From: a virus
Length of the DNA stretch: 35,896 nt
IMG/VR virus record: IMGVR_UViG_3300034355_000213
Span: 1-35,896 of that record
Strand: one strand, 5' to 3'
Part shown: piece by piece, positions 8,900 through 24,940 of the stretch
How the letters are laid out: the number at the start of each line of letters is the position of its first letter
Numbering within the stretch: the stretch's first letter is position 1
The notes under the pieces: generated by a model
Seen by the model: only the letters and a program-made list of their open reading frames with translations
The model's database searches: none
What the model was told of the DNA's origin: nothing
Made by a program: the position numbers and the translations under genes

Positions 8900-9311
8900 C
8901 TATGATCTGCCCTTCAATCACGCGCTGTTGCGCTTCTTGTAGCGCCGCCGTGATGCTGATCGTCTGGTTAACTTCTACGCTGACAGCCTGTTTGGCTACC
9001 CAGTTGTGAACATGTTTCAACACATCTAGCGCCGCTTTGGTGTCGCCAGCCATAGCCGCATTACGCAACACATCAGCCATTTCCATTTCGCCTTCAGCGC
9101 GGCCTTTGATCTCTGCATACTCCGCTATCGGGTCGAGCTGTATTAACCGCCGATACTCAGTCGGCAGCATACCAGAAGCTAACGCCAGTGCGTCGCCCTT
9201 GAGTCCGCGTTTAGCGGCTTCATAAATCTTTTCTAGCCGTGCTTCGGTTGCCCGTATTTCGCGCGGCTCATGGGGGATGGAACTAAAGCCACCATCTGCA
9301 TAGAAAGCCAT
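8766..9311 (-). CDS. Terminase small subunit-like protein (181 aa)
   Basis: I place the start at ATG 9311 (MAFYADGGFSSIPHEPREIR). A longer reading from 9425 would add a hydrophobic, T-tract-encoded extension that looks spurious. The helical core (LEKIYEAAKRGLKGDALALA, then LPTEYRRLIQLDP, then GRAEGEMEMADVLRNAA) resembles the helix-turn-helix and oligomerisation parts of phage small terminases, which bind the packaging site. It is followed by a coiled region and an acidic, probably disordered tail. Position directly before terL supports the call. The gene is the first of the leftward operon. No clear Shine-Dalgarno is visible. A TATAAA box ends 7 bp before the ATG, which would fit a leaderless message but is weak evidence. 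Confidence 0.75.
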   Translation of the reverse strand: MAFYADGGFSSIPHEPREIRATEARLEKIYEAAKRGLKGDALALASGMLPTEYRRLIQLDPIAEYAEIKGRAEGEMEMADVLRNAAMAGDTKAALDVLKHVHNWVAKQAVSVEVNQTISITAALQEAQQRVIEGQIIDANDYIQPGGRTALDGDAVESDAEERSTGLRQISVPVEETEYAP

Positions 9312-9456
9312 AAAAAGTTTTATAGCACACAAAAATAAAAAATAAAAAAGTTTGTGCAGTCCCTGCGTAGATATTCCCAGACTGCTCAAGGCCCAGCCCC
9401 CCTGTCTACAATCTCCAGTATACAATTACGTTTACATAAACTAAGTAGACATTTAG

Positions 9457-9478
9457 TTTAGGGCAATTAGGGCAATCG
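9457..9478 (+). repeat. Iteron pair 1 (tandem TTAGGGCAA)
   Basis: Two head-to-tail copies of TTAGGGCAA, with a flanking T before and TCG after. The 22-bp unit is identical to 9666-9687, 209 bp away. Confidence 0.85.
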
Positions 9479-9546
9479 CATTTCAAGTCGCAACCGCATC
9501 ACTGGGGAATTCCCAGGGGAAGTTTGCATCGGTGCTGGCGGGGCGG

Positions 9547-9600
9547 TTAGGGCAGCTAAACGCCCAATCACCCTAAAATATCGCAACACCTACCCTAATC
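9547..9600. repeat. Degenerate iteron half-sites
   Basis: TTAGGGCAG at 9547-9555 faces CCCAATCACCCTAA at 9563-9576 and ACCCTAATC at 9592-9600. These are single, diverged copies of the 9-mer in both orientations, lying between the two perfect pairs. Confidence 0.55.
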
Positions 9601-9665
9601 AGGTATCAGAAAGGTAACTTATAAAACCGCATATAACGCATTGATAACGCCTGAACATCAGCGAT

Positions 9666-9687
9666 TTTAGGGCAATTAGGGCAATCG
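9666..9687 (+). repeat. Iteron pair 2 (tandem TTAGGGCAA)
   Basis: An exact second copy of the 22-bp unit at 9457-9478. It sits directly before the most AT-rich part of the region. Confidence 0.85.
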
Positions 9688-9774
9688 TTTTCGGCGACAT
9701 CTCCTATAGTAATACAATTACTAATATACCAATTATATAGACTATAATATAAGATTTAAGATTAATTATTATTG

Positions 9775-9795
9775 ATTACCCTAATTACCCTAAAA
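9775..9795 (-). repeat. Inverted iteron pair (tandem TTAGGGTAA variant)
   Basis: On the + strand this reads ATTACCCTA twice in tandem followed by AAA. On the minus strand it is TTTTAGGGTAATTAGGGTAA, the same 9-bp period with C changed to T in both units. It lies on the far side of the AT-rich stretch, pointing back at pairs 1 and 2. Confidence 0.8.
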
Positions 9796-9928
9796 CAGAA
9801 CATTAATTAGCAATTACAAAAAGATGCGCCGCCCCACACGATTGCTCTATTTTGCCCTATCACTACCCGTTTAGGGCGATCGCCTTCACTTTTCATTTAC
9901 CTTAAATCAGCCCCCGATAAAAAAGATC

Positions 9929-9958
9929 TTTACAACTTATCCCCATACGTGCTATTTG
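9929..9958 (+). promoter_or_regulatory. Possible sigma70 promoter for the rightward small-gene operon
   Basis: TTTACA (9929-9934) and TGCTATTTG (extended -10, hexamer 9953-9958) are 18 bp apart. The -35 matches 5 of 6 and the -10 only 3 of 6, helped by the TG. A DnaA-box-like TTATCCCCA lies in the spacer, and the first start-associated repeat begins at 9957. This is a weak call. Confidence 0.35.
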
Positions 9959-9976
9959 TAACAAATCAACAGGAGA
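9957..9976 (+). repeat. Start-associated repeat, copy 1
   Basis: TGTAACAAATCAACA followed by GGAGA, 13 nt before the ATG at 9984. In this copy the preceding bases complete a perfect inverted repeat, ATTTGT-A-ACAAAT. Confidence 0.8.
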
Positions 9977-9983
9977 TAGCAAC

Positions 9984-10121
9984 ATGCAACATGATCGCCA
10001 CGTTCAAGCTAACAATGTAATGATCGCCATTTATGCAGCGCTTAAAGACAGCGAAGCATCTTTAATTAGAGCCAGCGCCACTTGGGCTTGGGGTGTTGAA
10101 CCATTATTTTCGGAGGGTTGA
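9984..10121 (+). CDS. Small hypothetical protein (45 aa)
   Basis: It reads MQHDRHVQANNVMIAIYAAL then KDSEASLIRASATWAWGVEP and ends LFSEG. The Shine-Dalgarno AGGAGA at 9971-9976 is well placed. It is the first gene of the rightward cluster and carries copy 1 of the start-associated repeat. The centre is an amphipathic helix. I do not recognise it. It is kept because of the strong ribosome site and the repeated leader. Confidence 0.55.
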   Translation: MQHDRHVQANNVMIAIYAALKDSEASLIRASATWAWGVEPLFSEG

Positions 10122-10124
10122 GAG

Positions 10125-10223
10125 ATGAGAACCATGCAGATTATAGAGACGATAGTATTCACGATAGCTGCCACGTTATTCGTCCCGATGATGGCGCTGG
10201 CGACACTCTACTTCGTATACTGA
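10125..10223 (+). CDS. Small single-pass membrane protein (32 aa)
   Basis: It reads MRTMQIIETIVFTIAATLFV then PMMALATLYFVY. Nearly the whole chain is one hydrophobic segment, so it should be an inner-membrane peptide. GGAGGG lies upstream at 10112-10117, and the gene starts 3 bp after the preceding stop. It is far from the lysis genes, so an early host-directed role (for example exclusion of other phages) is possible. That is speculation. Confidence 0.5.
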   Translation: MRTMQIIETIVFTIAATLFVPMMALATLYFVY

Positions 10224-10235
10224 GAGGGTAAGATC

Positions 10236-10586
10236 ATGACACACTTCGAAACGATCCACACATTCAAGACCGCGCGGCTAACAATCGAGACGGCTGTTGC
10301 GCCGGAAGATTTTGAGCCTGATTGGGATTTCGAGAACGAACAATACCGCCAAGACACGCTGGAAAAAATAAACAATGGTGACTTGTCATGGTTTCAAGTG
10401 CGCGTGCGCGTGCTACTCGACCACAAATTTGAGGTAGGCGCTGATTATCTTGGCGGCTGTTGCTATGAGACGACAGAAGAATTTATACGTGATGCGTATT
10501 GGCGCGACATGGTGCATAGCGCATGTTCCGAGGCGCGCAACTATCTCACCAAATATCGCACGCCATTGATTGTGCGCGCGGCCTAA
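10236..10586 (+). CDS. Conserved hypothetical phage protein (116 aa)
   Basis: It starts MTHFETIHTFKTARLTIETA and contains the segment WFQVRVRVLLDHKFEVGADYLGGC interrupted as WFQVRVRV, EVGADYLGG and CCYET, followed by FIRDAYWRDMVHSACSEAR. A short protein with this order (RVRV, xDYLGxxxY, then a C-terminal MVxxAxxEAR helix) recurs in tailed-phage early regions, always without known function. It starts 12 bp after the small membrane protein with GAGAGGG as ribosome site. It has no membrane segment and is mildly acidic. Confidence 0.75.
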   Translation: MTHFETIHTFKTARLTIETAVAPEDFEPDWDFENEQYRQDTLEKINNGDLSWFQVRVRVLLDHKFEVGADYLGGCCYETTEEFIRDAYWRDMVHSACSEARNYLTKYRTPLIVRAA

Positions 10587-10587
10587 G

Positions 10588-10608
10588 TGTAACAAATCAA
10601 CAGGGGGA
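10588..10608 (+). repeat. Start-associated repeat, copy 2
   Basis: TGTAACAAATCAACA followed by GGGGGA, 13 nt from the core to the ATG at 10616. It begins 2 bp after the stop of the 116-aa gene. Confidence 0.8.
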
Positions 10609-10615
10609 CATAATA

Positions 10616-10774
10616 ATGATTAAAGCATGGAGACAACCGACCAAAGCAGAAATTAACTTTGGCTATGGCGCTATTCATTACGCCGAATTTGACCGCGAGC
10701 TGTGGCTGCGCAAAGACGGCAAACTAAAAAAGTGGATAGTCTCGCCATATGACGGTTTACGCTATTACCGCTAA
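10616..10774 (+). CDS. Small hypothetical protein (52 aa)
   Basis: It reads MIKAWRQPTKAEINFGYGAI then HYAEFDRELWLRKDGKLKKW and ends SPYDGLRYYR. The start at 10616 follows a GGGGGA ribosome site and the start-associated repeat. An upstream in-frame ATG at 10523 lies inside the previous gene and is not preferred. It is basic and aromatic-rich, without a membrane segment. No family is recognised. Confidence 0.65.
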   Translation: MIKAWRQPTKAEINFGYGAIHYAEFDRELWLRKDGKLKKWIVSPYDGLRYYR

Positions 10775-10776
10775 TC

Positions 10777-10797
10777 TGTAACAAATCAACATAGGGG
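10777..10797 (+). repeat. Start-associated repeat, copy 3
   Basis: TGTAACAAATCAACA followed by TAGGGGA, with the ATG at 10807, 15 nt from the core. It begins 2 bp after the previous stop. Confidence 0.8.
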
Positions 10798-10806
10798 AAT
10801 AAGATC

Positions 10807-11073
10807 ATGCGAACGACTTTTGATTTTTATTATGATCCTGGTCACGGCTGGTTAAAAGTAAACACCCGCGACTTGTTCGCGCTGGGGTTAACGCCGAGCG
10901 ATTTCAGCTCTTATTCATACCGCAATAATGATGATCTATATTTAGAAGAGGATGCTGACGCAACAAAGTTTATTGTGGCTTATCGCCAAGCTACAGGTAA
11001 TGATCCTAAATACCGCGAGCGCGGCGCGGGCGAACGGCAATCAAGAATTAGGTCATACGCGCGCAATATGTAA
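10807..11073 (+). CDS. Conserved hypothetical phage protein (88 aa)
   Basis: The start FDFYYDPGHGWLKV, the central FSSYSYRNNDDLYLEEDADA and the C-terminal SRIRSYARNM match a small protein seen in many phages (DPGHGWLKV ... YSY ... YLEEDxD ... F ... IRSY). Its function is unknown. The TAA stop is the TAA within copy 4 of the start-associated repeat, so gene and repeat overlap. It is preceded by TAGGGGA and by copy 3. Confidence 0.78.
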   Translation: MRTTFDFYYDPGHGWLKVNTRDLFALGLTPSDFSSYSYRNNDDLYLEEDADATKFIVAYRQATGNDPKYRERGAGERQSRIRSYARNM

Positions 11074-11090
11074 CAAATCAACATAGGGGA
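11069..11090 (+). repeat. Start-associated repeat, copy 4
   Basis: TGTAACAAATCAACA followed by TAGGGGA. Its TAA is the stop codon of the 88-aa gene, and the next start (11097) is 13 nt after the core. Confidence 0.8.
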
Positions 11091-11096
11091 ATGACA

Positions 11097-11360
11097 ATGA
11101 GCGATTATAACGGCTGGACAAACTATGCAACTTGGCGCGTCAACTTAGAGATCTTTGATGGATGGGATCCATACGATTGCGGGCACGATAGTAGCACAAG
11201 CGCCTATGATCTTGGGTTAGCTCTTAAAGACATAGCAGAAGAACTGTTAGCCAATGACGGCAAAGGATTAACCTTTGACTACGCAATGGCGTTTCTGTCT
11301 GATGTTAATTGGACAGAGATCGCGCGTCACATGATCAAAAATTATTCGGAGGCGGCATGA
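11097..11360 (+). CDS. DUF7249-like small phage protein (87 aa)
   Basis: It begins MSDYNGWTNYATWRVNLEIF. The YNGWTNYxTWxVxLxI opening is a well-known signature of small phage proteins (DUF7249-like as I recall it), function unknown. I chose ATG 11097 over ATG 11091 because AGGGGA ends at 11090, too close to the first ATG. The C-terminus has an acidic helix and a WTEIARHMI segment. The stop overlaps the next gene's ATG. Confidence 0.78.
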   Translation: MSDYNGWTNYATWRVNLEIFDGWDPYDCGHDSSTSAYDLGLALKDIAEELLANDGKGLTFDYAMAFLSDVNWTEIARHMIKNYSEAA

Positions 11361-11548
11361 TGCTGACAGTCTCTCTCAACATAGAAACAATCGACGCAAT
11401 AATCGCATGGATTGACAGCCAGCCAGCGCCTCTCCCGTGGCATATGATCGACGCGCGCGAGACGCTGAAAGAGGAACTAGATAACGAATGGGAGCGCCGC
11501 GCGGATGATTTCTTTAGCTATGGCGGCGAGAGAGCTGAAAACGATTAA
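11357..11548 (+). CDS. Small acidic hypothetical protein (63 aa)
   Basis: From ATG 11357 it reads MMLTVSLNIETIDAIIAWID then SQPAPLPWHMIDARETLKEE. The second ATG at 11360 is equally possible, with GGAGG at 11348-11352 serving either. The ATGA overlap with the previous stop indicates translational coupling. The C-terminus is highly charged (NEWERRADDFFSY). No family is recognised. Confidence 0.62.
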   Translation: MMLTVSLNIETIDAIIAWIDSQPAPLPWHMIDARETLKEELDNEWERRADDFFSYGGERAEND

Positions 11549-11559
11549 GGGGAAAACAA

Positions 11560-11706
11560 ATGAAAAAACGCGATTATTACCGCCTTTGTTTGCGTCAGCC
11601 GGTGGATTGGCTGCAATCAAATTTAGACAACCCTAGCCAATATCAAACGCCTATTCACCTAGCGTTAATTCGTTTGGCTATTCGTAACATGGAGCGCAAC
11701 AAATGA
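11560..11706 (+). CDS. Small basic hypothetical protein (48 aa)
   Basis: It reads MKKRDYYRLCLRQPVDWLQS then NLDNPSQYQTPIHLALIRLA and ends RNMERNK. AAGGGG precedes the ATG. The stop overlaps the next start as ATGA. A C-terminal amphipathic helix is likely. No family is recognised. Confidence 0.6.
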   Translation: MKKRDYYRLCLRQPVDWLQSNLDNPSQYQTPIHLALIRLAIRNMERNK

Positions 11707-12008
11707 AATTCACATATTACTTTGATGAGCTGGAGATCATTAAAAATTATGCCGTCATGGTAGCTGGCGAAGTAGATGTAGATTATCACATTGCGCCAGC
11801 CGAGCCGGATGTTGGCATATCCGAGCCTTACATTGACGATATAGACATAACGTCCATCGTCTTAAACAGTAACAAGAAAGACGTGCCAGCTCTCAACATC
11901 AGCCAAGATCACTGGCTGTATAAGATGATCTATGACGCGCTAATTGATAGCGAAGATTTGATTTACGCTTGTGAACAAGACGCAGCCGAAGATAAGAGGG
12001 ATTACTAA
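11703..12008 (+). CDS. Acidic hypothetical protein (101 aa)
   Basis: It starts MKFTYYFDELEIIKNYAVMV and is very acidic, with runs such as PYIDDIDITSI and EDLIYACEQDAAEDKRDY. It is coupled by ATGA to the 48-aa gene, and GGAG at 11693-11696 serves as ribosome site. Acidic proteins of this size in early phage regions are often DNA mimics or inhibitors of host enzymes, but nothing here proves that. Confidence 0.65.
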   Translation: MKFTYYFDELEIIKNYAVMVAGEVDVDYHIAPAEPDVGISEPYIDDIDITSIVLNSNKKDVPALNISQDHWLYKMIYDALIDSEDLIYACEQDAAEDKRDY

Positions 12009-12010
12009 TC

Positions 12011-12151
12011 ATGTCTAAGATGAAAGACTATTACGAATTTCTGCAAATGCTGTATCGCCTCGACACCGACGCCTTGCGCGTCATGCTGGAATACGAGTGC
12101 GATGACTTCAAACGCAAATTGATCGAAGGCGAGATAGGGGCGCGATCATGA
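12011..12151 (+). CDS. Small hypothetical protein (46 aa)
   Basis: It reads MSKMKDYYEFLQMLYRLDTD then ALRVMLEYECDDFKRKLIEG and ends EIGARS. It is mostly helical and acidic. It begins 2 bp after the preceding stop and its stop overlaps the next ATG. GAGGG at about 11997 is a plausible ribosome site. No family is recognised. Confidence 0.58.
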   Translation: MSKMKDYYEFLQMLYRLDTDALRVMLEYECDDFKRKLIEGEIGARS

Positions 12152-12426
12152 GATACGAATTTGAATTTGACACTATCGGCGAACATTGGATTACATTTCG
12201 CGGCGTCGTGACATACGACATTGAAATGACGAAAGACGAATGGCCTAAGCCATTCATCACGAATATTAATATCGAGGAATGTAAAATTCTATATTCTCAA
12301 ATCTTACCCGATGAAGACGACAACCCAGGATGGCGCGACGCCAGCCCAAAAGAGCTGGAATATATAGCGGCGCACAAGGATTTTATACGCGAATTAGATC
12401 GCCATTGGGGGGAAGATGCGCCATGA
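12148..12426 (+). CDS. Acidic hypothetical protein (92 aa)
   Basis: It begins MRYEFEFDTIGEHWITFRGV with alternating beta-like residues, then an acidic loop (LPDEDDNPGWRDASPKELEY) and a C-terminal helix with RHWGEDAP. Both ends overlap neighbours by ATGA. The layout (N-terminal beta strands, acidic C-terminus) resembles the 101-aa protein two genes upstream, so distant paralogy is possible but unproven. Confidence 0.65.
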   Translation: MRYEFEFDTIGEHWITFRGVVTYDIEMTKDEWPKPFITNINIEECKILYSQILPDEDDNPGWRDASPKELEYIAAHKDFIRELDRHWGEDAP

Positions 12427-12629
12427 GCACATATGATGATGAATATATAAGACGACTAGAACGTGAAGTGAAATCGTTAAAAAAACAATTAGAAGCCGCG
12501 CGCGATAGCATAGGAATATATGACAACTATAGAACCGCGCTGTTTTCTTTTGTTCAAGACCCGCCAAAAATGACGCTAGAAACAGCAATTAAGCAAGCAA
12601 AAAGAGCGTTAAGAGGATTAGAAATATGA
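12423..12629 (+). CDS. Coiled-coil hypothetical protein (68 aa)
   Basis: From ATG 12423 it reads MSTYDDEYIRRLEREVKSLK then KQLEAARDSIGIYDNYRTAL. The first 30 residues form a good heptad coiled coil (L, V, L, L positions). I chose this start because it overlaps the preceding stop as ATGA. A longer reading from 12330 lies inside the upstream gene. It ends 4 bp into the next gene. It may dimerise. No family is recognised. Confidence 0.62.
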   Translation: MSTYDDEYIRRLEREVKSLKKQLEAARDSIGIYDNYRTALFSFVQDPPKMTLETAIKQAKRALRGLEI

Positions 12630-12829
12630 AAACAGGCGCACAAAGACAACTCAAAGACCCCAGCGCGCTCACCCCATACGAGCAGCGCATATGGGAGTTA
12701 CGCCAGCAAGGGTTAGACAATCATCAGATCGGCGCGGCTATGGAGCAATTACCGGCAAGCGTAGCCTCGCGCATGAAAGCCATAAAAGAGAAATTGGAAT
12801 TGCAAGATGCGCTACGCATGGTGGGATAG
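12626..12829 (+). CDS. Small helix-turn-helix protein, sigma region 4/LuxR-type (67 aa)
   Basis: Residues 15-58 (LTPYEQRIWELRQQGLDNHQ, then IGAAMEQLPASVASRMKAI) fit a sigma70 region 4 or LuxR-type helix-turn-helix: a loop of Thr-Pro, a helix with E and W, a turn around GLDNHQIG, and a recognition helix. It is expected to bind DNA and could regulate phage or host transcription. It overlaps the previous stop (ATGA) and the following DnaA-like gene by 23 bp. A similar small HTH protein occurs in the replication operon at 19431-19610. Confidence 0.7.
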   Translation: MKTGAQRQLKDPSALTPYEQRIWELRQQGLDNHQIGAAMEQLPASVASRMKAIKEKLELQDALRMVG

Positions 12830-13151
12830 AGCGACAGAAAAAGAGGGTGATGTGTTCATACGCGACATAATCGCGGAAGTAGCTGATGAATTTCAGCTAT
12901 TCCCGTCAGATATTGTAAGCCACAAAAGGCGAAGCAAGATCGTCAGCGCGCGGCATAAGGCTATGTATCGCGCACGACAAGAAACAGACGCGAGCTACCT
13001 AAAACTAGCGCGCATATTCAAACGCGATCATACAACCGTTATCCACGGTGTTAGATGCTGGAAGGCAAAGTTAGATGGCACACAATACAAAAGAACAAAG
13101 CGCCCTAGCGGTGCTGATAACAGTAATAATCGAAGTTCTACTGGGGCTTAA
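12807..13151 (+). CDS. Stand-alone DnaA domain IV-like DNA-binding protein (114 aa)
   Basis: Residues 30-85 match the C-terminal DNA-binding domain of the bacterial initiator DnaA: PSDIVSHKRRSKIVSARHKA (the basic loop and helices that contact the minor groove), then LARIFKRDHTTVIHGVRCW. The DHTTVIHG recognition helix (74-81) corresponds to DHTTVxHA in DnaA. The AAA+ ATPase and domains I-III are absent. The C-terminus is a polar tail. In DnaA this domain reads 9-bp DnaA boxes. Here it may recruit or block initiation, or act as a transcription factor. It lies at the end of the rightward cluster, close to a terminator. Confidence 0.85.
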   Translation: MRYAWWDRATEKEGDVFIRDIIAEVADEFQLFPSDIVSHKRRSKIVSARHKAMYRARQETDASYLKLARIFKRDHTTVIHGVRCWKAKLDGTQYKRTKRPSGADNSNNRSSTGA

Positions 13152-13217
13152 ATGATGTTTACATACCAGCTAATCGACCCCGCCCTGCTATACGATGGGC
13201 TAGGTATCTGCTATTAA
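13152..13217 (+). CDS. Possible tiny peptide (21 aa)
   Basis: The frame MMFTYQLIDPALLYDGLGIC ends with Y and a stop just before the terminator. It begins immediately after the stop of the DnaA-like gene. There is no separate ribosome site, only the GGGG of the preceding codons. It may be chance. Confidence 0.25.
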   Translation: MMFTYQLIDPALLYDGLGICY

Positions 13218-13248
13218 TTGGGGACGTGTTGACCTCCCCTAGACTTGG

Positions 13249-13277
13249 CCCTGCGCTTAACGGCGCGGGGTTATTTT
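13249..13277 (+). terminator. Intrinsic terminator of the rightward small-gene operon
   Basis: CCCTGCGC (13249-13256) pairs with GCGCGGGG (13263-13270) through 8 bp with one G-T wobble and a 6-nt loop, followed directly by TTATTTT. It works in the + direction only, because the other strand has no T-tract. It overlaps the end of the opposing gene at 13257. Confidence 0.75.
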
Positions 13278-13553
13278 TACGAACTCATTGGCTGGCAAGA
13301 TGTCCTGACCAAAAGGTTTTCGCGGCTCCTGCATTTGATAGAAGTTATAATCGAGCAAATATGGTAAGATGCGCGGCATCAGCCATTCACGCATAGCATT
13401 TGTTGATGCGGCCACTGGCGCGGGCTGATAAGGGGCCGTGCGGCCATAGGTAGCTGCATCATGGGGGAGAGTAGCTTGGAACGCCCGAATCCTATCCCAA
13501 AAGTCTTTATTGGCGCGCTGATCGCCACCTAGATACCCAGAGATCTCATCCAT
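13257..13553 (-). CDS. Hypothetical protein opposing the small-gene cluster (98 aa)
   Basis: From ATG 13553 it reads MDEISGYLGGDQRANKDFWD then RIRAFQATLPHDAATYGRTA. A GTG at 13562 would add three residues. The C-terminus contains EPRKPFGQDILPANEFVKI. It converges on the small-gene operon and its last codons lie in that operon's terminator stem. It is probably the most distal gene of leftward transcription or has its own promoter (a candidate lies at 13798-13826). No family is recognised. Confidence 0.55.
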   Translation of the reverse strand: MDEISGYLGGDQRANKDFWDRIRAFQATLPHDAATYGRTAPYQPAPVAASTNAMREWLMPRILPYLLDYNFYQMQEPRKPFGQDILPANEFVKITPRR

Positions 13554-13773
13554 GACAGACACCGAATTCGAGCGGCGCTTGAAAGCGCTGCAACAGGAAG
13601 TAAGCAGCGCCTATCTTAAAGGATACGAGGAAGCTAGGCAACGCTCACAATGGACGATCAGCGCCGCCGTTGACGAAAGCAACCGCCTTCGCTTGGCGCT
13701 CGAAGAGGCGCTGGTTGGTGCGGACGAAACAACAAAAATAAAAATTCTTGAAACATTGCGAAGAAAATCATAG
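13552..13773 (+). CDS. Small coiled-coil hypothetical protein (73 aa)
   Basis: It reads MTDTEFERRLKALQQEVSSA then YLKGYEEARQRSQWTISAAV, and is charged and helical throughout with Leu/Ala heptads. Its start overlaps the start of the opposing 98-aa gene by 2 bp, so the two are divergent, head to head. No clear Shine-Dalgarno is seen (only AGAGA at 13540-13544). Probably real by its protein-like composition, but the weak start keeps confidence moderate. Confidence 0.5.
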   Translation: MTDTEFERRLKALQQEVSSAYLKGYEEARQRSQWTISAAVDESNRLRLALEEALVGADETTKIKILETLRRKS

Positions 13774-13797
13774 CCAAACCCTCCAAAGGGTCAGACC

Positions 13798-13826
13798 ATG
13801 ATCCCACCGTTTCTCATAAATGTCAA
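13798..13826 (-). promoter_or_regulatory. Candidate sigma70 promoter reading leftward
   Basis: On the minus strand TTGACA (13826-13821) and GATCAT (13803-13798) are 17 bp apart. The -35 is perfect and the -10 matches 4 of 6. Transcription would start near 13791 at a small ACCCT-TTGG-AGGGT hairpin and run antisense to the 73-aa gene and into the 98-aa gene. Confidence 0.4.
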
Positions 13827-13871
13827 CGGCATAGCCCCTCTTTGCAGGTGTGATAGACGATTTTAGTTAGC

Positions 13872-16262
13872 TCACACCCACTTAGGCTTAGACTTAGGCA
13901 TAGGGACAACATTATTGTCTTTAGGCTTCTCATCGTCTTTAGGCTTCTCATCGTATTTAACCTTATTCTCTAACATTTCCCTGAGTTTAGATTTTTTATA
14001 ATCGGCTAACATGTGCGGCGCGCAGAATATGTGCTTCTTGGTCTGATATTCCGGCGTTCCTACAGAGCCGCAATCAATCCAGCCTGCTTCCTTGAGCGCC
14101 TGAAACAGCGCCGCTGGCGGTATCTTCATTTTAGTAGCTGGCGCTTTAGTTGATACAGCTAGATCTTGACAAATCTTATGGAATGGACTGCCAATAACTT
14201 CACGATCAAATGGCGGCTCTTTGTTTCTTATCGCGTCTAAGATGTAACTTTCAGCCAGCGACATGCCGCTCTCGATCAGCGAGGCTTTATAATCGGTCAG
14301 CGGCGGCATCATGCCAGGATTAAACTTAGCCACGTCGCGGTCGTGTAACCACTGAGCGATAGCGTTGAAGCCCTCGCGCTGATACCATGCCGCCATAGCC
14401 GCGCCATCGCGTGGGTGCATACGCGGTGCAGTAGACCACACGCAGAACCAGCGACGGTCGGTTGACTCAAGCGTGATCGGCAGACGATGATTTGTAAACG
14501 CTAGAACGAATAAACGGTTGAGCATGTAATAGGGATGCAAGCCCTTACGGTTGATCGAGATCAGATCCGGCGGCGCAGCGATAAGCGGCTTAAGTTGGTT
14601 AGCCAGCGCGCGGCGTTCGACGGCCTCGCCTTCCTTTAACTCGTTGAGGACAACGATCTCGCTTTCTAAAAGATAGCCCCACTGATTGTTAATTAGCTCG
14701 TTCTTTATCAAGCCATAGTTACGATGAAACGGCCCGCATATACTCCAGATAAACGGTGCCCACATAAGATCCTTACCAGCGCCTTCATCGCCGCCGTGTA
14801 AGACCGCATGGTTTATTTTAATCTTAGGCTTTTGCAGCTTGAACGCCATCATATCAAAAATATGTTCACGCTCGCCAGTCTCAGGGACAAGCAGCTCACA
14901 ATGCTTGTGCCAGCGGTCTATACTCGCGGTTGACGGAACGATAGCTGGGCGCGCTTCAAGCCATTTATTGCCATAGACAAGACCATCGCGCGTAATCGTC
15001 GCATTCTCACCCGATGCGTAAGTGATCTCATCGACAATCTCTGCTCCTTTGGCTTGTCTGTTTTCATCATAAAAAGTCGCTGCCTCAACTTTGCGCCCTG
15101 TGTGAACTGATATGCACTTAGTCCCACGGTAGATGGCGTTAAACGAAGGACGCGACACCTCACGCCGCGTCACCTTATTAAAATAACCATCATCAGTTAC
15201 AACATAAGCCCACTCATCAAACCAAGTCGCGCGGTCTTCTATAGCCTCAGTGCGTCGTTCTGCATCTTCTTGACGAACCTTAGCGTCGTCGGGAAATATA
15301 TCGTTAGGTTCGTTATTGGCGCGCAGCTTTTGACCAAGCTCTGATATAAGCTCACTACGTAGCCCTTGCTTCTCAGATGGGCCACCATTATCAGCGACCC
15401 ATTTTAAAAAATAATTGCTGTCGATCTTATCTCTGCAATGACCGTGAAAACAAAAATAAGATCTCGTCGCAGCGTGATAGCGTCCTTCAATGCCTTCGCT
15501 GTGTTCTTCATGGTTAGGACAGATAACGCTGCGCCAGCCTTCATTGTTGATACTCGTTAAGATTAAATTATTATCGTTCAACCATGCGGTGATGTTATCA
15601 TTACCTGTATCTTTAATCTTTATAGGACGACCGCTCGTTGTATTGGCTTCACCTGGCGTTACATTAAGCGCGGTGCAGATCTGTTCAAGCGTAAACAAAC
15701 GATCTGGATTAAACTCAAGTAATTTAGCTGCAAAATTGTTGCGGCCACGCTTTAAATTAACACTGCCTGGCATACGGAAATTACGAACTGGATTATTTGC
15801 GCCTTTGTCAGTGTAAAGCGCATCAGCTATGGCGTTAATCGCTGCGCTGAACTCATTCGTTGTCGGTTGGTTATCTGGATCAAAAGCATAGCCCCACTGA
15901 ATAGATCCTTCAGATGTTTCCATCTTCCAAGTAGGTTCAAGCGGCGGTATGATTAACTGACCATAATCTTTCAATGATCCAATGTCGTCTAACATCATAA
16001 CAAGAACGTAGTCGCAGTTAGCGGCTGATGCGCTTACTTTACCGTCAACGAAACGCTCTTTTATATAACAGCCTGTGTTACCATACCAAGAGTCGCCTTC
16101 TTTAATGCGCGCTTGTTCAGGTAAAAACGCAGGATAAGTAGACTCCGGCGTTCCGTCGGGGAAGTAATGCACTTCACCGTCACGTTTCTTTAATATCTGT
16201 TTAGTAAAAAGCGCTGTCTCACCATCGAATGAAAGGCTTTTAAGAAAGTCAACAAAAGTCAT
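13872..16262 (-). CDS. Primase-helicase, AEP-type primase with SF3/DUF5906-type helicase (796 aa)
   Basis: It is expected to unwind phage DNA and lay down primers at the fork. Order of parts: an archaeo-eukaryotic-primase-like N-terminus with the acidic strand YVLVMMLDDIG (85-95), SEGSIQWGY (117-125) and NFRMPGSVNLKRG (161-173); a Cys/His zinc site (C248, H251, H254, C271, H273, C276); then a helicase with Walker A GGDEGAGKDL (490-499), a Walker B-like strand SEIVVLNEL (534-542), and the FTNHRLPI / DRRW segment (589-605) typical of DUF5906/VapE-like helicases. I use ATG 16262, which overlaps the polymerase stop as ATGA. An upstream ATG at 16319 lies inside polA. The C-terminus ends in repeated KPKDDEKPKD acidic-basic units. 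Confidence 0.88.
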   Translation of the reverse strand: MTFVDFLKSLSFDGETALFTKQILKKRDGEVHYFPDGTPESTYPAFLPEQARIKEGDSWYGNTGCYIKERFVDGKVSASAANCDYVLVMMLDDIGSLKDYGQLIIPPLEPTWKMETSEGSIQWGYAFDPDNQPTTNEFSAAINAIADALYTDKGANNPVRNFRMPGSVNLKRGRNNFAAKLLEFNPDRLFTLEQICTALNVTPGEANTTSGRPIKIKDTGNDNITAWLNDNNLILTSINNEGWRSVICPNHEEHSEGIEGRYHAATRSYFCFHGHCRDKIDSNYFLKWVADNGGPSEKQGLRSELISELGQKLRANNEPNDIFPDDAKVRQEDAERRTEAIEDRATWFDEWAYVVTDDGYFNKVTRREVSRPSFNAIYRGTKCISVHTGRKVEAATFYDENRQAKGAEIVDEITYASGENATITRDGLVYGNKWLEARPAIVPSTASIDRWHKHCELLVPETGEREHIFDMMAFKLQKPKIKINHAVLHGGDEGAGKDLMWAPFIWSICGPFHRNYGLIKNELINNQWGYLLESEIVVLNELKEGEAVERRALANQLKPLIAAPPDLISINRKGLHPYYMLNRLFVLAFTNHRLPITLESTDRRWFCVWSTAPRMHPRDGAAMAAWYQREGFNAIAQWLHDRDVAKFNPGMMPPLTDYKASLIESGMSLAESYILDAIRNKEPPFDREVIGSPFHKICQDLAVSTKAPATKMKIPPAALFQALKEAGWIDCGSVGTPEYQTKKHIFCAPHMLADYKKSKLREMLENKVKYDEKPKDDEKPKDNNVVPMPKSKPKWV

Positions 16263-18181
16263 TTGCCATACCGCCCCATAACGGAAACTTCTATATTTAA
16301 TGGTAAACCTTCCGCCCATGACGGCGGCGTTTTCATTATTCGTTCTAATGCTTTTTGTGCTTTGTCTGGATTATCTGTTTCAATAACAATTTCATCGTGA
16401 ACGTGTAGAACAGTATCAAAACCTTCATCATCAAGGCAGCGTAAAGCATGGCGTAAAATATCTGCGGCGGTAGCTTGTGTAATATTTTCACAAGCTAATC
16501 CTTTCCATAGTCTTGCACGCGGCCATTGTTTAGCGTCGGCGCTAGGCTTAAATGACGCTTTAGCGTATGTTACCTCTTCTTTGGCGCTATTAAAATCGGC
16601 ATACGGATAGCACAGCCTGCGACCCGAAGGGAGAATATACCAAAGGTGTCTATTCTGCCGCAAGTATTTTACGCGGCCTGCTTCAAACTCCGTGTCGTCA
16701 TTTCGCATAGCGCTTGTGTAGGCTTCTTGTAACGCAGACCAAAAGTCAGCGGCCCAATCATTAGCCTTTCGCCAACCGATGACCATCTGGTTTGCTTCAG
16801 TTTCAGGCAAATCAACGCCGTAGATGCGCCCCATCGCAGCGAACGCGCCAATACCGCCAGCAAATCCACACGCAAGCTCTTGAACTTTACCGATCTGTCG
16901 CTGATCTTTTGTTACTTGATCTTCTGTTATATTAAATGTTTTAGCCGCGTTTACTTTATAAACATCAGCGCCCGTCTCAAACAAAGTTAGTTTGGCTTGA
17001 CCGTTATTGGACAACCACGGAGTTATACGGGCTTCAATGGACGCCCAGTCTGCTACTACAAACTTTTTGTTAGTGGCTGGTATTAACGCGGGGCGTAACA
17101 TACCCTTGAGCACATCTGTGACGCGCTTACCATGTATAGGCACTATCGGTTTACGACGCACCATATCTTGACGAACTGAGTCTGGTTTGTCTGCACACTT
17201 ACGTGCGAAGTTATGCACTTGCGCGCCGTATGATGACGCTCTGCCCGTGGCGCTGCCACCTGCGAATACAAACGCGCCGCGCACACGGTCGTCATCTCCG
17301 GCGAGTTGTTCAAGCCGTTTGAACTTAGCGACCGAGGACGCCCACATATCATCGGCGCATTGTATGACCTCAAGGACATCGGGCGGCACTTGGTCAGGGT
17401 CGCCCATTGACAACAGCGCGGCCCGCACGCTCTTGTCGATAGACGGCTTGTCGTTCTTGACCGCCAGCGCACGCGCATCTGGCCCTAGCCGCGCTAACAC
17501 CCACTCGCGCATCTTAGGACTGCGGACAGATGTGATCGCGCCTTTGGTTATATCAACCACGCGTTTTTGAATATCAACAATCTCTGCATCAGAATAAAGC
17601 AGCGCGGCTTTGCACAGCTTGACATCTACGCGCACGCCTCTGTCGTTGATGCGTTCGTTGACGTGATAATCGGTTAGCTGTTCTTCACTCAACGGTTCGA
17701 TGCGTTGGCTGAAGTCTCGCATAGCGCGAACGTCCTGCGCGCAGTATCTAATTAGACCTTTCATATCTTCGTCAGTGCCTTTAAACGGTGGTGTGCAGAG
17801 CTTCTTAACAAGCGCGCCGCCTTTGTGATCTTTACGCATTGACGCGCCCATGAAGCGCCCGACATCTTCTAACGATCCTGGCATACAGTTAGCGCGTGCC
17901 TGTGCAGAGGTGCAGTAAAAGCGATCTATTGGCATCGGCATACCAAGCACATGCTCTATGATTAGTCGCTCGAAGGCTGCGTTATGCGCGCAGATTTGAT
18001 GGTCTGGAGCGTTAGCGAATATCTTACGCATCTCCGACACGTTCGTCGTGACGTTGACGCTCTCATCATTAAAAGCAAAGGCCATGCACAACACTTGCGT
18101 CGAAGGATGACGAGCGTAGTTATATACGCCCGCCACCTTCAGATCGCACTCGCTCCGCGTTTCAAAGTCTAACCAGATCAT
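16259..18181 (-). CDS. polA: Family A DNA polymerase with 3'-5' exonuclease (640 aa)
   Basis: This is the replicative polymerase of the phage. The proofreading domain has Exo I WLDFETRS (D5, E7), Exo II AHNAAFE (N67, E71 in place of the usual D) and Exo III YCAQD (Y146, D150). The polymerase domain has motif A VADWASIEAR (D378, E383), the O-helix RQIGKVQELACGFAGG (R428, K432, F440) and motif C HVHDE (D596, E597). No 5'-3' exonuclease is present, which is normal for phage enzymes. Aligned to E. coli Pol I, position 762 is Leu (L436 here) and position 766 is Phe. It starts on the stop of an exported-protein gene and its stop overlaps the primase-helicase start. Confidence 0.95.
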   Translation of the reverse strand: MIWLDFETRSECDLKVAGVYNYARHPSTQVLCMAFAFNDESVNVTTNVSEMRKIFANAPDHQICAHNAAFERLIIEHVLGMPMPIDRFYCTSAQARANCMPGSLEDVGRFMGASMRKDHKGGALVKKLCTPPFKGTDEDMKGLIRYCAQDVRAMRDFSQRIEPLSEEQLTDYHVNERINDRGVRVDVKLCKAALLYSDAEIVDIQKRVVDITKGAITSVRSPKMREWVLARLGPDARALAVKNDKPSIDKSVRAALLSMGDPDQVPPDVLEVIQCADDMWASSVAKFKRLEQLAGDDDRVRGAFVFAGGSATGRASSYGAQVHNFARKCADKPDSVRQDMVRRKPIVPIHGKRVTDVLKGMLRPALIPATNKKFVVADWASIEARITPWLSNNGQAKLTLFETGADVYKVNAAKTFNITEDQVTKDQRQIGKVQELACGFAGGIGAFAAMGRIYGVDLPETEANQMVIGWRKANDWAADFWSALQEAYTSAMRNDDTEFEAGRVKYLRQNRHLWYILPSGRRLCYPYADFNSAKEEVTYAKASFKPSADAKQWPRARLWKGLACENITQATAADILRHALRCLDDEGFDTVLHVHDEIVIETDNPDKAQKALERIMKTPPSWAEGLPLNIEVSVMGRYGK

Positions 18182-18411
18182 TTTGGCGCATCATATCTTG
18201 TGCCGATAGTCTGGCCGTAACGGTTGCTGTAATACATGCCATACTCATCGCCTACGCCCGCCGCGACCATGCGCCCATTGCGGTCATAGATGAAAGTTTG
18301 CTCGCCGTAGTTCATCTCAGTGAACCTCTCCACCTCCTGTGCGTTCAAAGGCTGTGCGATAAGCGTCAACGATGCGGTCAAGAACAAAAAGTATCTCATC
18401 TGGTTTCTCAT
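18178..18411 (-). CDS. Small exported protein with signal peptide (77 aa)
   Basis: The N-terminus MRNQMRYFLFLTASLTLIAQ followed by PLNA-QE is a classic Sec signal peptide with a likely cut after PLNA. The mature part (about 53 aa) has a repeated aromatic/Gly pattern: TFIYDRNGRMVAAG and YYSNRYGQTIGTRY. A start at the second Met (18399) is equally plausible. It overlaps the 56-aa gene upstream by 95 bp in another frame, and its stop overlaps the polymerase ATG. An exported product inside a replication operon is unexpected. Superinfection exclusion or envelope change are possibilities, without proof. Confidence 0.7.
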   Translation of the reverse strand: MRNQMRYFLFLTASLTLIAQPLNAQEVERFTEMNYGEQTFIYDRNGRMVAAGVGDEYGMYYSNRYGQTIGTRYDAPK

Positions 18412-18487
18412 GTTTGTCAGAGTATTCTTTAATGGTGAATAGTAGATCGCCCATCAGTTGCTTTAGTCGTGTTTCTTCGTCACTCAT
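18317..18487 (-). CDS. Small acidic hypothetical protein (56 aa)
   Basis: It reads MSDEETRLKQLMGDLLFTIK then EYSDKHEKPDEILFVLDRIV, and ends GGGEVH. It is helical and acidic. Its ATG lies 8 bp before the end of the upstream 129-aa gene (ATGAGTGA), which indicates coupling. It overlaps the exported-protein gene by 95 bp. Protein-like composition and the coupled start support it. Confidence 0.55.
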   Translation of the reverse strand: MSDEETRLKQLMGDLLFTIKEYSDKHEKPDEILFVLDRIVDAYRTAFERTGGGEVH

Positions 18488-18869
18488 CCCCACTCTCCCG
18501 AATAGCGGCGCGGACGTCGCCGCACACTGTTTGTAATCCTTGCCAAATTTCGTCTAATCTTTCTCGCAACATCTTATTCTCAGCGCGGAGACTTGCGTTT
18601 TCAGTTAGCAGCCGAGCGTTCATCTCAGCCTGCGCGTAAAACTTCGCAATCTCGCGCTTTACATCCCGCAATTCTGCGCTGTCACCCATAACCGCTGTCT
18701 TTACGTCGCGGCGCAGCGTTTCATTCTCATCGTAGAGTTGTTCAATTTGATGCGCTGCGTCATAATAAAGGTTTGGCTTTTCTTTTATAATCTCAGCATT
18801 TACCGCGCGATTTAACAGACGTTTAATAATATCTCTTACCCGTTCACGGTCGTTATCTTCGCTTCCCAT
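18480..18869 (-). CDS. Coiled-coil hypothetical protein (129 aa)
   Basis: It starts MGSEDNDRERVRDIIKRLLN. A long coiled coil covers about residues 40-115, with Leu/Asn heptads (IEQLYDENETLRRDV, LLTENASLRAENKMLRERL). It resembles the leucine-zipper spacer of many small phage proteins and probably dimerises. It overlaps the 201-aa gene upstream by 34 bp and the 56-aa gene downstream by 8 bp. Its function is unknown. Confidence 0.7.
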   Translation of the reverse strand: MGSEDNDRERVRDIIKRLLNRAVNAEIIKEKPNLYYDAAHQIEQLYDENETLRRDVKTAVMGDSAELRDVKREIAKFYAQAEMNARLLTENASLRAENKMLRERLDEIWQGLQTVCGDVRAAIRESGDE

Positions 18870-19441
18870 ACGACTGACTCCTCTATCTTCGTTGGATCTT
18901 TTGCGTCTTGCGTTAAGAACTGCGTTTTGATCGGGCCAACGCCAAGCGCCATCCAGTAACGCGCGCCTGTTGCGGGCTTGCCGTTCCAGTTCTGTAGATA
19001 GGTGAACTGAATCACGTCTTGGTAATACACGCCCATCACATTGATCTGTGATATGTGTTCTTCAAAATGCACAATCTGCACGCCCTTACTTGCGGCTGGG
19101 GGCCAACATTTAAAAAAGTCAAACTTTGGATAGTTGATATAATCAGACCCAACTTCCTGAAACTCGCCCCAGCCTATCGGGGGGTTAAGAACAACTTTCT
19201 TGTTACCCGGATAATCATCGCGCCACTCAGCGACGCCAAAACCTGTGCGGTATTGATAATACCACTTGTTCAGCCATGTGCCTGCGCTGTCGTAGTTGTT
19301 ATACAACATGCTGTCGCTGCCCTTGTCGTAACTAAACACAGACGTAAACGACGGCGTATCCGGCGCAGAGTAATCGAAGCGACGTAGTTCGCCTGACTTG
19401 AAGAACGGCCAATAAGCCGGAACGAAAAGTTTATCCGCCAC
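18836..19441 (-). CDS. Hypothetical protein with GTG start (201 aa)
   Basis: It starts at GTG 19441 (MADKLFVPAYWPFFKSGELR), inside the end of the HTH gene, with AAGG about 6 nt upstream. It is rich in Trp, Tyr and Phe and looks beta-rich, for example TWLNKWYYQYRTGFGVAEW and YYQDVIQFTYLQNW. It has no nucleotide-binding motif, signal peptide or membrane segment. It is co-transcribed with replication genes. I do not recognise the family. Confidence 0.7.
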   Translation of the reverse strand: MADKLFVPAYWPFFKSGELRRFDYSAPDTPSFTSVFSYDKGSDSMLYNNYDSAGTWLNKWYYQYRTGFGVAEWRDDYPGNKKVVLNPPIGWGEFQEVGSDYINYPKFDFFKCWPPAASKGVQIVHFEEHISQINVMGVYYQDVIQFTYLQNWNGKPATGARYWMALGVGPIKTQFLTQDAKDPTKIEESVVWEAKITTVNG

Positions 19442-24674: not shown

Positions 24675-24940
24675 CGCCGGTCTGCTTTCTGGCTTACAAG
24701 ATCTCGAATGGTGTCAAGTTTTGCAAACACTTGATTGAGCACGGTATTAAATTCTTCGCGTGTGATGTAACGGCCAGCAACAAGCACCTCGATCTCACCA
24801 ACCTTTTCGGCCAGTTCTTTATCGGCGGCTTGCAAGTCTTTGACAGCGCCCCAGACGGTATTCAATACCCATCCGCCCAGGACGCCGATCACGCCAACGG
24901 CGACATCAAAAAATACTTGATATTCAGCCATCGGTGTCAT
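24671..24940 (-). CDS. Membrane-anchored coiled-coil protein, possible holin-related (89 aa)
   Basis: It starts MTPMAEYQVFFDVAVGVIGV; a start at the second Met (24931) is possible. One membrane segment (about 9-30) is followed by a coiled coil (AADKELAEKVGEIEVLVAGR) and TREEFNTVLNQVFAKLDTIR. Proteins of this type often sit directly before endolysins in phages and are called holin-like or hypothetical. The ATG overlaps the stop of the ejection-protein gene (ATGA), and the end overlaps the endolysin start. Confidence 0.7.
   Translation of the reverse strand: MTPMAEYQVFFDVAVGVIGVLGGWVLNTVWGAVKDLQAADKELAEKVGEIEVLVAGRYITREEFNTVLNQVFAKLDTIRDLVSQKADRR

Follow-up and report, generated by a model that had tools for sequence, protein, structure and literature searches.

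The start-associated sequences (SAS) and ESAS of cluster K mycobacteriophages were described by Pope 2011 (PMC3203893). According to the passages cited here, the SAS has a 13-bp consensus (GGGATAGGAGCCC) and covers the ribosome binding site within a few bp of the start codon; a promoter is located in the ESAS (PMC11373665), and start-associated sequences are also found in Microbacterium cluster EF (PMC7302621). In the same passages, these sequences have been without a known reader since the description in 2011, and later papers call their role unclear. The stoperators of cluster A mycobacteriophages are sites bound by a phage repressor, which stops elongation (cited sections of PMC6550527 and PMC9283540). 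For T4-type phages, PeSL promoter/stem-loop cassettes have been reported (Arbiol 2010, Comeau 2014, as mentioned in PMC4503421).

The DNA analysed here (the window, 35,896 bases, IMG/VR virus record IMGVR_UViG_3300034355_000213) encodes a terminase, a P22-like portal, a head-closure protein, a DNA polymerase, a primase and a helicase; the phage is a freshwater podovirus with a P22-type portal. DNA similar to the early region was found in a single phage record, a podovirus genome from Manatee Spring. Nine relatives with 69–76% terminase identity are located inside GTDB MAG contigs assigned to Rhodoferax (2), Methylococcaceae (2), Burkholderiales, a beta proteobacterium, Gammaproteobacteria, Proteobacteria and an actinobacterium, and the host is likely a freshwater proteobacterium. 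No tRNA was found in a tRNA search, and the Rfam search over 9000–14000 yielded one eukaryotic miRNA model alone, far below the cut-off. An 898-aa reading frame among the late genes (24937–27633, minus strand) has no PHROGs match (E up to 0.001) and a single sub-cut-off Pfam match. Ten of the 16 TTAGGG copies of the window are clustered on both strands within 420 bp (9458–9876), a region with an exact 22-bp repeat at 9457 and 9666; this iteron-like stretch is a candidate replication origin.

Four exact copies of the 15-mer TGTAACAAATCAACA are located on the plus strand of the early region (Table 1). Besides these, two sites with up to three mismatches and none with two or fewer were found in the window, and none of 100 dinucleotide shuffles reached six hits (mean 1.16). 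In antisense orientation the window holds no match nearer than three mismatches. The genes behind the copies are indeed unrelated, as the initial annotation had stated, and belong to four different families (F55, F93, F94 and F6); the TAA of copy 4 (11071–11073) is the stop codon of the preceding gene, as also claimed there. The distance to the ATG had been given as 13–15 nt and was measured as 12, 13, 15 and 13 nt, hence 12–15 nt. A ribosome site directly behind the repeat is present at copies 1 and 2 (GGAGA and GGGGGA), whereas at copies 3 and 4 TA intervenes before GGGGA. A second ATG behind copy 4 (11091) is in frame with the one at 11097, for which the Shine-Dalgarno spacing is better.

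Table 1. Features of the early region and the DnaA-domain gene of the window (F numbers, gene families; L numbers, loci of relatives).
Feature	Positions	Strand	Remarks
Predicted early-promoter -35 (TTTACA), upstream of copy 1	9929–9934	+	predicted from sequence
DnaA-box-like site TTATCCCCA in promoter spacer	9937–9945	+	TTATNCACA with one mismatch, 7/8
Predicted extended -10 (TGcTATTTG)	9953–9958	+	overlaps first two bases of copy 1; predicted from sequence
Start-associated element, copy 1	9957–9971	+	exact 15-mer
Small gene F55, 45 aa	9984–10121	+	behind copy 1; missing in L321, which has F12 right behind copy 1
Small conserved gene F12, 32 aa	10125–10223	+	left anchor of variable block
Small gene F44, 116 aa	10236–10586	+	has the element in L218, none in the window
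Element copy 2	10588–10602	+	begins 1 nt past F44 stop
Small gene F93, 52 aa	10616–10774	+	behind copy 2; phrog_38643
Element copy 3	10777–10791	+	begins 2 nt past F93 stop
Small gene F94, 88 aa	10807–11073	+	behind copy 3
Element copy 4	11069–11083	+	supplies F94 stop
Small gene F6, DUF7249, 87 aa	11097–11360	+	behind copy 4
Stand-alone DnaA domain IV protein, 114 aa	12807–13151	+	PF08299, E 4.9e-20, signature KRDHTTVIHG; proposed element reader

Compared with the cluster K SAS, in so far as the passages cited above describe them, the element is likewise a short asymmetric repeat in one orientation before unrelated, non-structural genes; some copies hold the upstream stop codon, and a part of the set is linked to a promoter-like upstream element. 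The likeness raised in the initial annotation covers position, polarity and the unrelated early genes. It ends with the sequence (TGTAACAAATCAACA as compared to GGGATAGGAGCCC) and with the place relative to the Shine-Dalgarno sequence, since the SAS covers the ribosome binding site and the window element lies upstream of it. Further differences are the lack of an intergenic gap in lineage A (the relatives that include the window), the freshwater P22-portal podovirus as carrier and the apparent relationship to DnaA boxes. The element works like start-associated sequences and is not a cluster K member by sequence or Shine-Dalgarno-relative place.

The 15-mer alone was found in at least 119 stretches of IMG/VR, mostly scattered as expected for a length of 15 bases, and among the 131 matches listed 21 belong to this phage group. 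When a Shine-Dalgarno sequence and an ATG were required behind it, 11 stretches on 10 contigs remained. Random placement, which the initial annotation would have counted against the repeat, prevails among the raw hits across IMG/VR as a whole, whereas within the phage family the copies lie in the early region, nearly all before called starts. Relatives were collected via the terminase (80 kept of 599) and via a degenerate element pattern, and they carry variants of the element. The family consensus RTAACNWATCMACA (14 bp, at most one mismatch) comprises 96 distinct elements located 7–38 nt before a start, after removal of near-duplicates from 188. Near-duplicate genomes were removed as well (lineage A from 25 to 19, lineage B from 50 to 25), and L120–L123, copies of the window, were dropped before counting. 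The comparison of flanks, first copies, folding, hairpins, conservation and position used 15 genomes of lineage A and 24 of lineage B; left out were L125, L127, L129 and L206 of lineage A, which have no forward element, and L272 of lineage B.

Most lineage A elements read GTAACAAATC[A/C]ACA (30 of 40) and most lineage B elements [G/A]TAACATATCCACA (29 of 52), some of the latter lineage being exactly GTAACTTATCCACA. Over all 96 elements, the information content is high across the 14 bases and low further upstream. Exact early-region copies number 33 in lineage A and 48 in lineage B, of which 31 and 45 precede a called start; all 81 are in forward and none in reverse orientation, and no exact copy was found outside the early region in 241 kb (118 kb of lineage A and 123 kb of lineage B). 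In lineage A pairs of the same gene (n = 75) the element differs by 6.5%, the 30 nt upstream by 60% and the first 45 nt of the gene by 20%; the corresponding values for lineage B (n = 124) are 8.4%, 53% and 36%. On average, 1.07 of the 14 bases differ between different genes within a genome compared to 2.10 between lineages in the same gene family; the element follows the genome more than the gene. In six loci without the element (L152, L164, L165, L168, L176 and L181), two starts at a time share some other repeated leader; L152, for instance, has a hairpin repeat of 24 nt and another repeat of 17 nt, and different lineages seem to use different start-associated repeats.

These comparisons give good support to a role of the element as a conserved cassette leader and a boundary of exchange. 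Gene families were assigned across 124 loci. The lineage A element precedes members of 17 different families in one genome or more; the conserved early families F1, F2, F3, F4, F5 and F13 were never found with it. Retention of the genes with loss of the repeat, the other outcome named in the initial annotation, was not seen within the family, the lineage A element being kept before F6 (10 of 10 non-redundant genomes with this gene), F35 (6 of 6) and F40 (4 of 4). Conservation of the right neighbour in lineage A is 0.10 at element junctions and 0.34 elsewhere, that of the left neighbour 0.11 and 0.35 (0 of 5000 permutations each, which assume independence of junctions that are not independent). 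In lineage B the left neighbour is less conserved at element junctions (0.18 vs 0.50) but the right neighbour is not (0.44 vs 0.46), which was counted against the explanation preferred below.

Single junctions show where the exchange occurs. Out of 54 pairs with the same left and a different right gene, 15 are at least 85% identical over the 40 nt up to the element and 18–38% identical, i.e. at chance level, behind it. F44 and its flank (95%) are common to the window and L218, but the next gene is F93 in the former and F40 in the latter. L321 is 98% identical to the window over 11703–19427, yet its cassette block between 9990 and 11065 is a different one; F55, F44, F93 and F94 have no match in L321, and other sequence stands behind its copies. 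Flank switching, junction conservation and the L321 block thus lend good support to the earlier suggestion of a crossover site at cassette boundaries. Since the element is common to unrelated genes, small genes are gained, lost and swapped at it; the comparisons locate the switches, not the enzyme or process. The T4 PeSL cassettes, as portrayed in the passage of PMC4503421, are similar in being a repeated regulatory module at the borders of shuffled small early genes, and in lineage B also in the stem-loop before the element. They differ in having an early promoter and a stem-loop per cassette and belong to an unrelated phage group; copies 2–4 of the window have neither, and each touches the preceding stop.

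Copy 1 is predicted to sit on an early promoter, which had been missed in the initial annotation. An 18-nt spacer separates TTTACA from TGcTATTTG, and the predicted +1 (approximately 9965) falls inside the element. The consensus promoter scan of 9300–13900 did not list this promoter, because TATTTG ends in G, and this result was also counted against the preferred explanation. Among the 96 elements, TTGACA-like hexamers with at least five matches peak at -29 to -27 from the element (17 elements) and a second time at -23 to -21 (13 elements). Both peaks are above shuffles; in the control for the first peak (200 shuffles) no single offset was above 5.

The element furthermore appears to be related to DnaA boxes, a point likewise missed at first. 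DnaA boxes are bound by DnaA, which also acts as a transcription regulator. In the window, a stand-alone DnaA domain IV protein is recognized by PF08299 and an RDHTTV-type signature. All five PDB sequence matches of this protein are DnaA, and DnaA domain IV tops the fold matches of its model (1j1v, Z 6.0, rmsd 4.8, 77 aligned), which is of moderate confidence (pLDDT 69.5). Downstream of the gene, a terminator-like 12-pair stem-loop followed by TTTTT is located on the plus strand (13246–13273). Two DnaA-domain-IV-like reading frames occur in one locus in L152, L254, L257 and L276. Stand-alone DnaA domain IV is encoded in 38 of 38 complete early regions with the element, and none of the 20 complete early regions without the domain has the element; the 38 loci include near-duplicates and motif-selected loci, and the association largely follows phylogeny. 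Nine DnaA-positive early regions without the element were counted against the DnaA reading. Within the terminase-selected loci, five have both, eight the domain only and 20 neither, so that the link is confounded with descent.

DnaA-box-like sequences are found at the promoters as well as in lineage B elements. At the place of the spacer site of the window (Table 1), L321 has TTATCCACA, a perfect DnaA box, and in 14 of 38 first copies a box of at least 7/8 lies in the promoter spacer, compared to 2.3% of shuffles (one of 39, L024, was omitted as it has no upstream sequence). Lineage B elements contain TATCCACA or TTATCCACA, and close or perfect matches to the box TTATNCACA are present in lineage B, in L321 and in a sister group. 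The window element itself is a poor box, AAATCAACA matching five of the eight fixed positions, which speaks against the DnaA reading; unlike DnaA boxes, the sites are tied to gene starts and not only to an origin. The sister group has closely similar DnaA domains and no forward element. All 11 distinct promoters before its small genes are of the type TTGAC[AG]-N17-[TC]ATAA[CG]; in each, the -10 is overlapped by an inverted DnaA box TGTGNATAA, and a second box facing it adjoins (at least 6/8 in all 11, at least 7/8 in six). The search had required the inverted box and a nearby TTGAC[AG], but neither the constant 17-nt spacing nor the facing box. Box-plus-promoter combinations exceed expectation in DnaA-positive relatives (12 vs 2.1) and also in DnaA-negative ones (10 vs 3.2), which rules out the enrichment as a mark of DnaA-positive phages alone and was counted against the DnaA reading.

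Covariation of domain and element was compared in the 15 lineage A genomes. When the A/C base of the element was matched to the helix type of DnaA (14 genomes), DnaA made up eight of the nine top-ranked of 1024 allele splits. The whole-protein Mantel correlation for DnaA is weak (rho 0.20, p 0.16), and F12 ranks highest. The match of helix type and base is broken by L321, the DnaA domain of which is identical to that of the window, yet its later copies read GTAATAAATCCACA. Near-identical domains are also found with and without the element (L061 and L127). Both observations count against the DnaA reading.

Besides being a cassette leader, the element is most likely also a regulatory DNA site, and our tentative first choice is an operator-like site for a DnaA-type protein. 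Building on the position, polarity, conservation and cassette switching observed above, the promoter and DnaA-box context in the relatives and the association with the DnaA gene, we infer the following course of binding, repression and roadblock action. The 14-bp element has its fixed place between the stop of one small early gene and the Shine-Dalgarno sequence of the next; copy 1 covers the point at which early transcription is predicted to start, and copies 2–4 precede later genes of what would be the same transcript. As the reader we propose a DnaA-type protein, either the stand-alone DnaA domain IV that the phage itself encodes later in the same run of genes (the more probable candidate) or else the host DnaA. 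While accumulating, it would occupy the sites at the promoter and thereby switch early transcription off; bound at the downstream copies, it would form a roadblock in one direction, much as at stoperators. It is rather unlikely, in our estimate, that the full arrangement holds, in which the DnaA domain has turned early-gene repressor with box-derived operators at the early promoter and stoperator-like copies before each interchangeable gene; if it does, any cassette gained at the repeat would come under the same shut-off. The literature search listed no publication in which early genes are regulated by a DnaA domain IV protein of a phage. Cluster A stoperators, as presented in the cited sections, would be comparable in their asymmetric sites at an early promoter (a predicted one in the window) and downstream of it in one orientation, and in a phage-encoded binding protein (proposed for the window). 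They are different in that the window sites are restricted to gene starts in one block and have a DnaA domain as candidate reader in place of the cluster A repressor.

A role at the RNA level, which the initial annotation had offered as translation or RNA-binding control, comes close behind and is a serious possibility. The element would then be an A/C-rich, unpaired leader before the Shine-Dalgarno sequence that raises or controls initiation, perhaps through re-initiation past the neighbouring stop, or via ribosomal protein S1 or an RNA-binding protein of the phage. It is always sense and always 5' of the Shine-Dalgarno sequence, and such strict polarity is more natural for an RNA signal. All 25 later lineage A copies touch the preceding stop (12 supply it and 13 begin 2–3 nt past it, counted with the 14-mer), and element genes have a more open initiation region (unpaired fraction 0.58) than other Shine-Dalgarno genes (0.50 in lineage A, 0.46 in lineage B). 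On the other hand, with the start point predicted at copy 1, the conserved 5' half would not be transcribed, most first copies linked to a promoter have no gene close upstream for coupling, and an unpaired leader needs no fixed 14-base sequence. Direct pairing with 16S rRNA is not supported, being no better than that of shuffled 15-mers (E. coli 16S rRNA as stand-in for that of the host).

It is improbable that the element is homology for recombination only, a by-product of leader duplication that offers short homology to cassettes and has no regulatory role. This would account for the breaks of flank identity in 15 of 54 pairs, for the replaced block of L321 and for the extra element without a Shine-Dalgarno sequence a little upstream of a good copy in L126, L248 and L330, possibly the scar of a lost cassette. 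It does not account for a sequence that is nearly fixed while both flanks diverge, and that is confined to the slot before the Shine-Dalgarno sequence and never reversed or elsewhere. In lineage B, moreover, a hairpin often lies between stop and element, and the element is still kept.

We give slightly less credit still to each copy being a promoter itself, with TAACNT or RTAAC as -10. The hexamer peak at -23 to -21 would fit a 16–18-nt spacer to TAACNT. The distance from the stop is 28–37 nt for 20 of 28 later copies of lineage B, and in 19 of these 20 the gap is filled by a stem-loop (z ≤ -2, usually with a T-rich tail), so that the genes behind would need a new start; the mean z at lineage A junctions is -0.6. 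However, the -35 of the later lineage A copies, which touch the stop, would fall in coding sequence, TAACAA does not end in T, the hexamers at -23/-22 match no better than 4 of 6 at copies 2 and 3 and are missing at copy 4, and the -35 distance differs between first and later copies. A T7-type phage promoter, which the stretch CATAGGGGA presumably resembles, was dropped, as no RNA polymerase family was found among the eight large proteins scanned; its register would also shift, since copies 1 and 2 lack the TA.

For start-associated sequences, this phage group offers a candidate reader, the DnaA domain, in the same genomes and natural site variants in many relatives. The role of the repeat as a joint for small-gene exchange has direct evidence here. 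Binding of the repeat by the DnaA domain would, if it occurs, explain how small genes come under control as soon as a phage acquires them, and a DnaA domain would then be in use outside replication.
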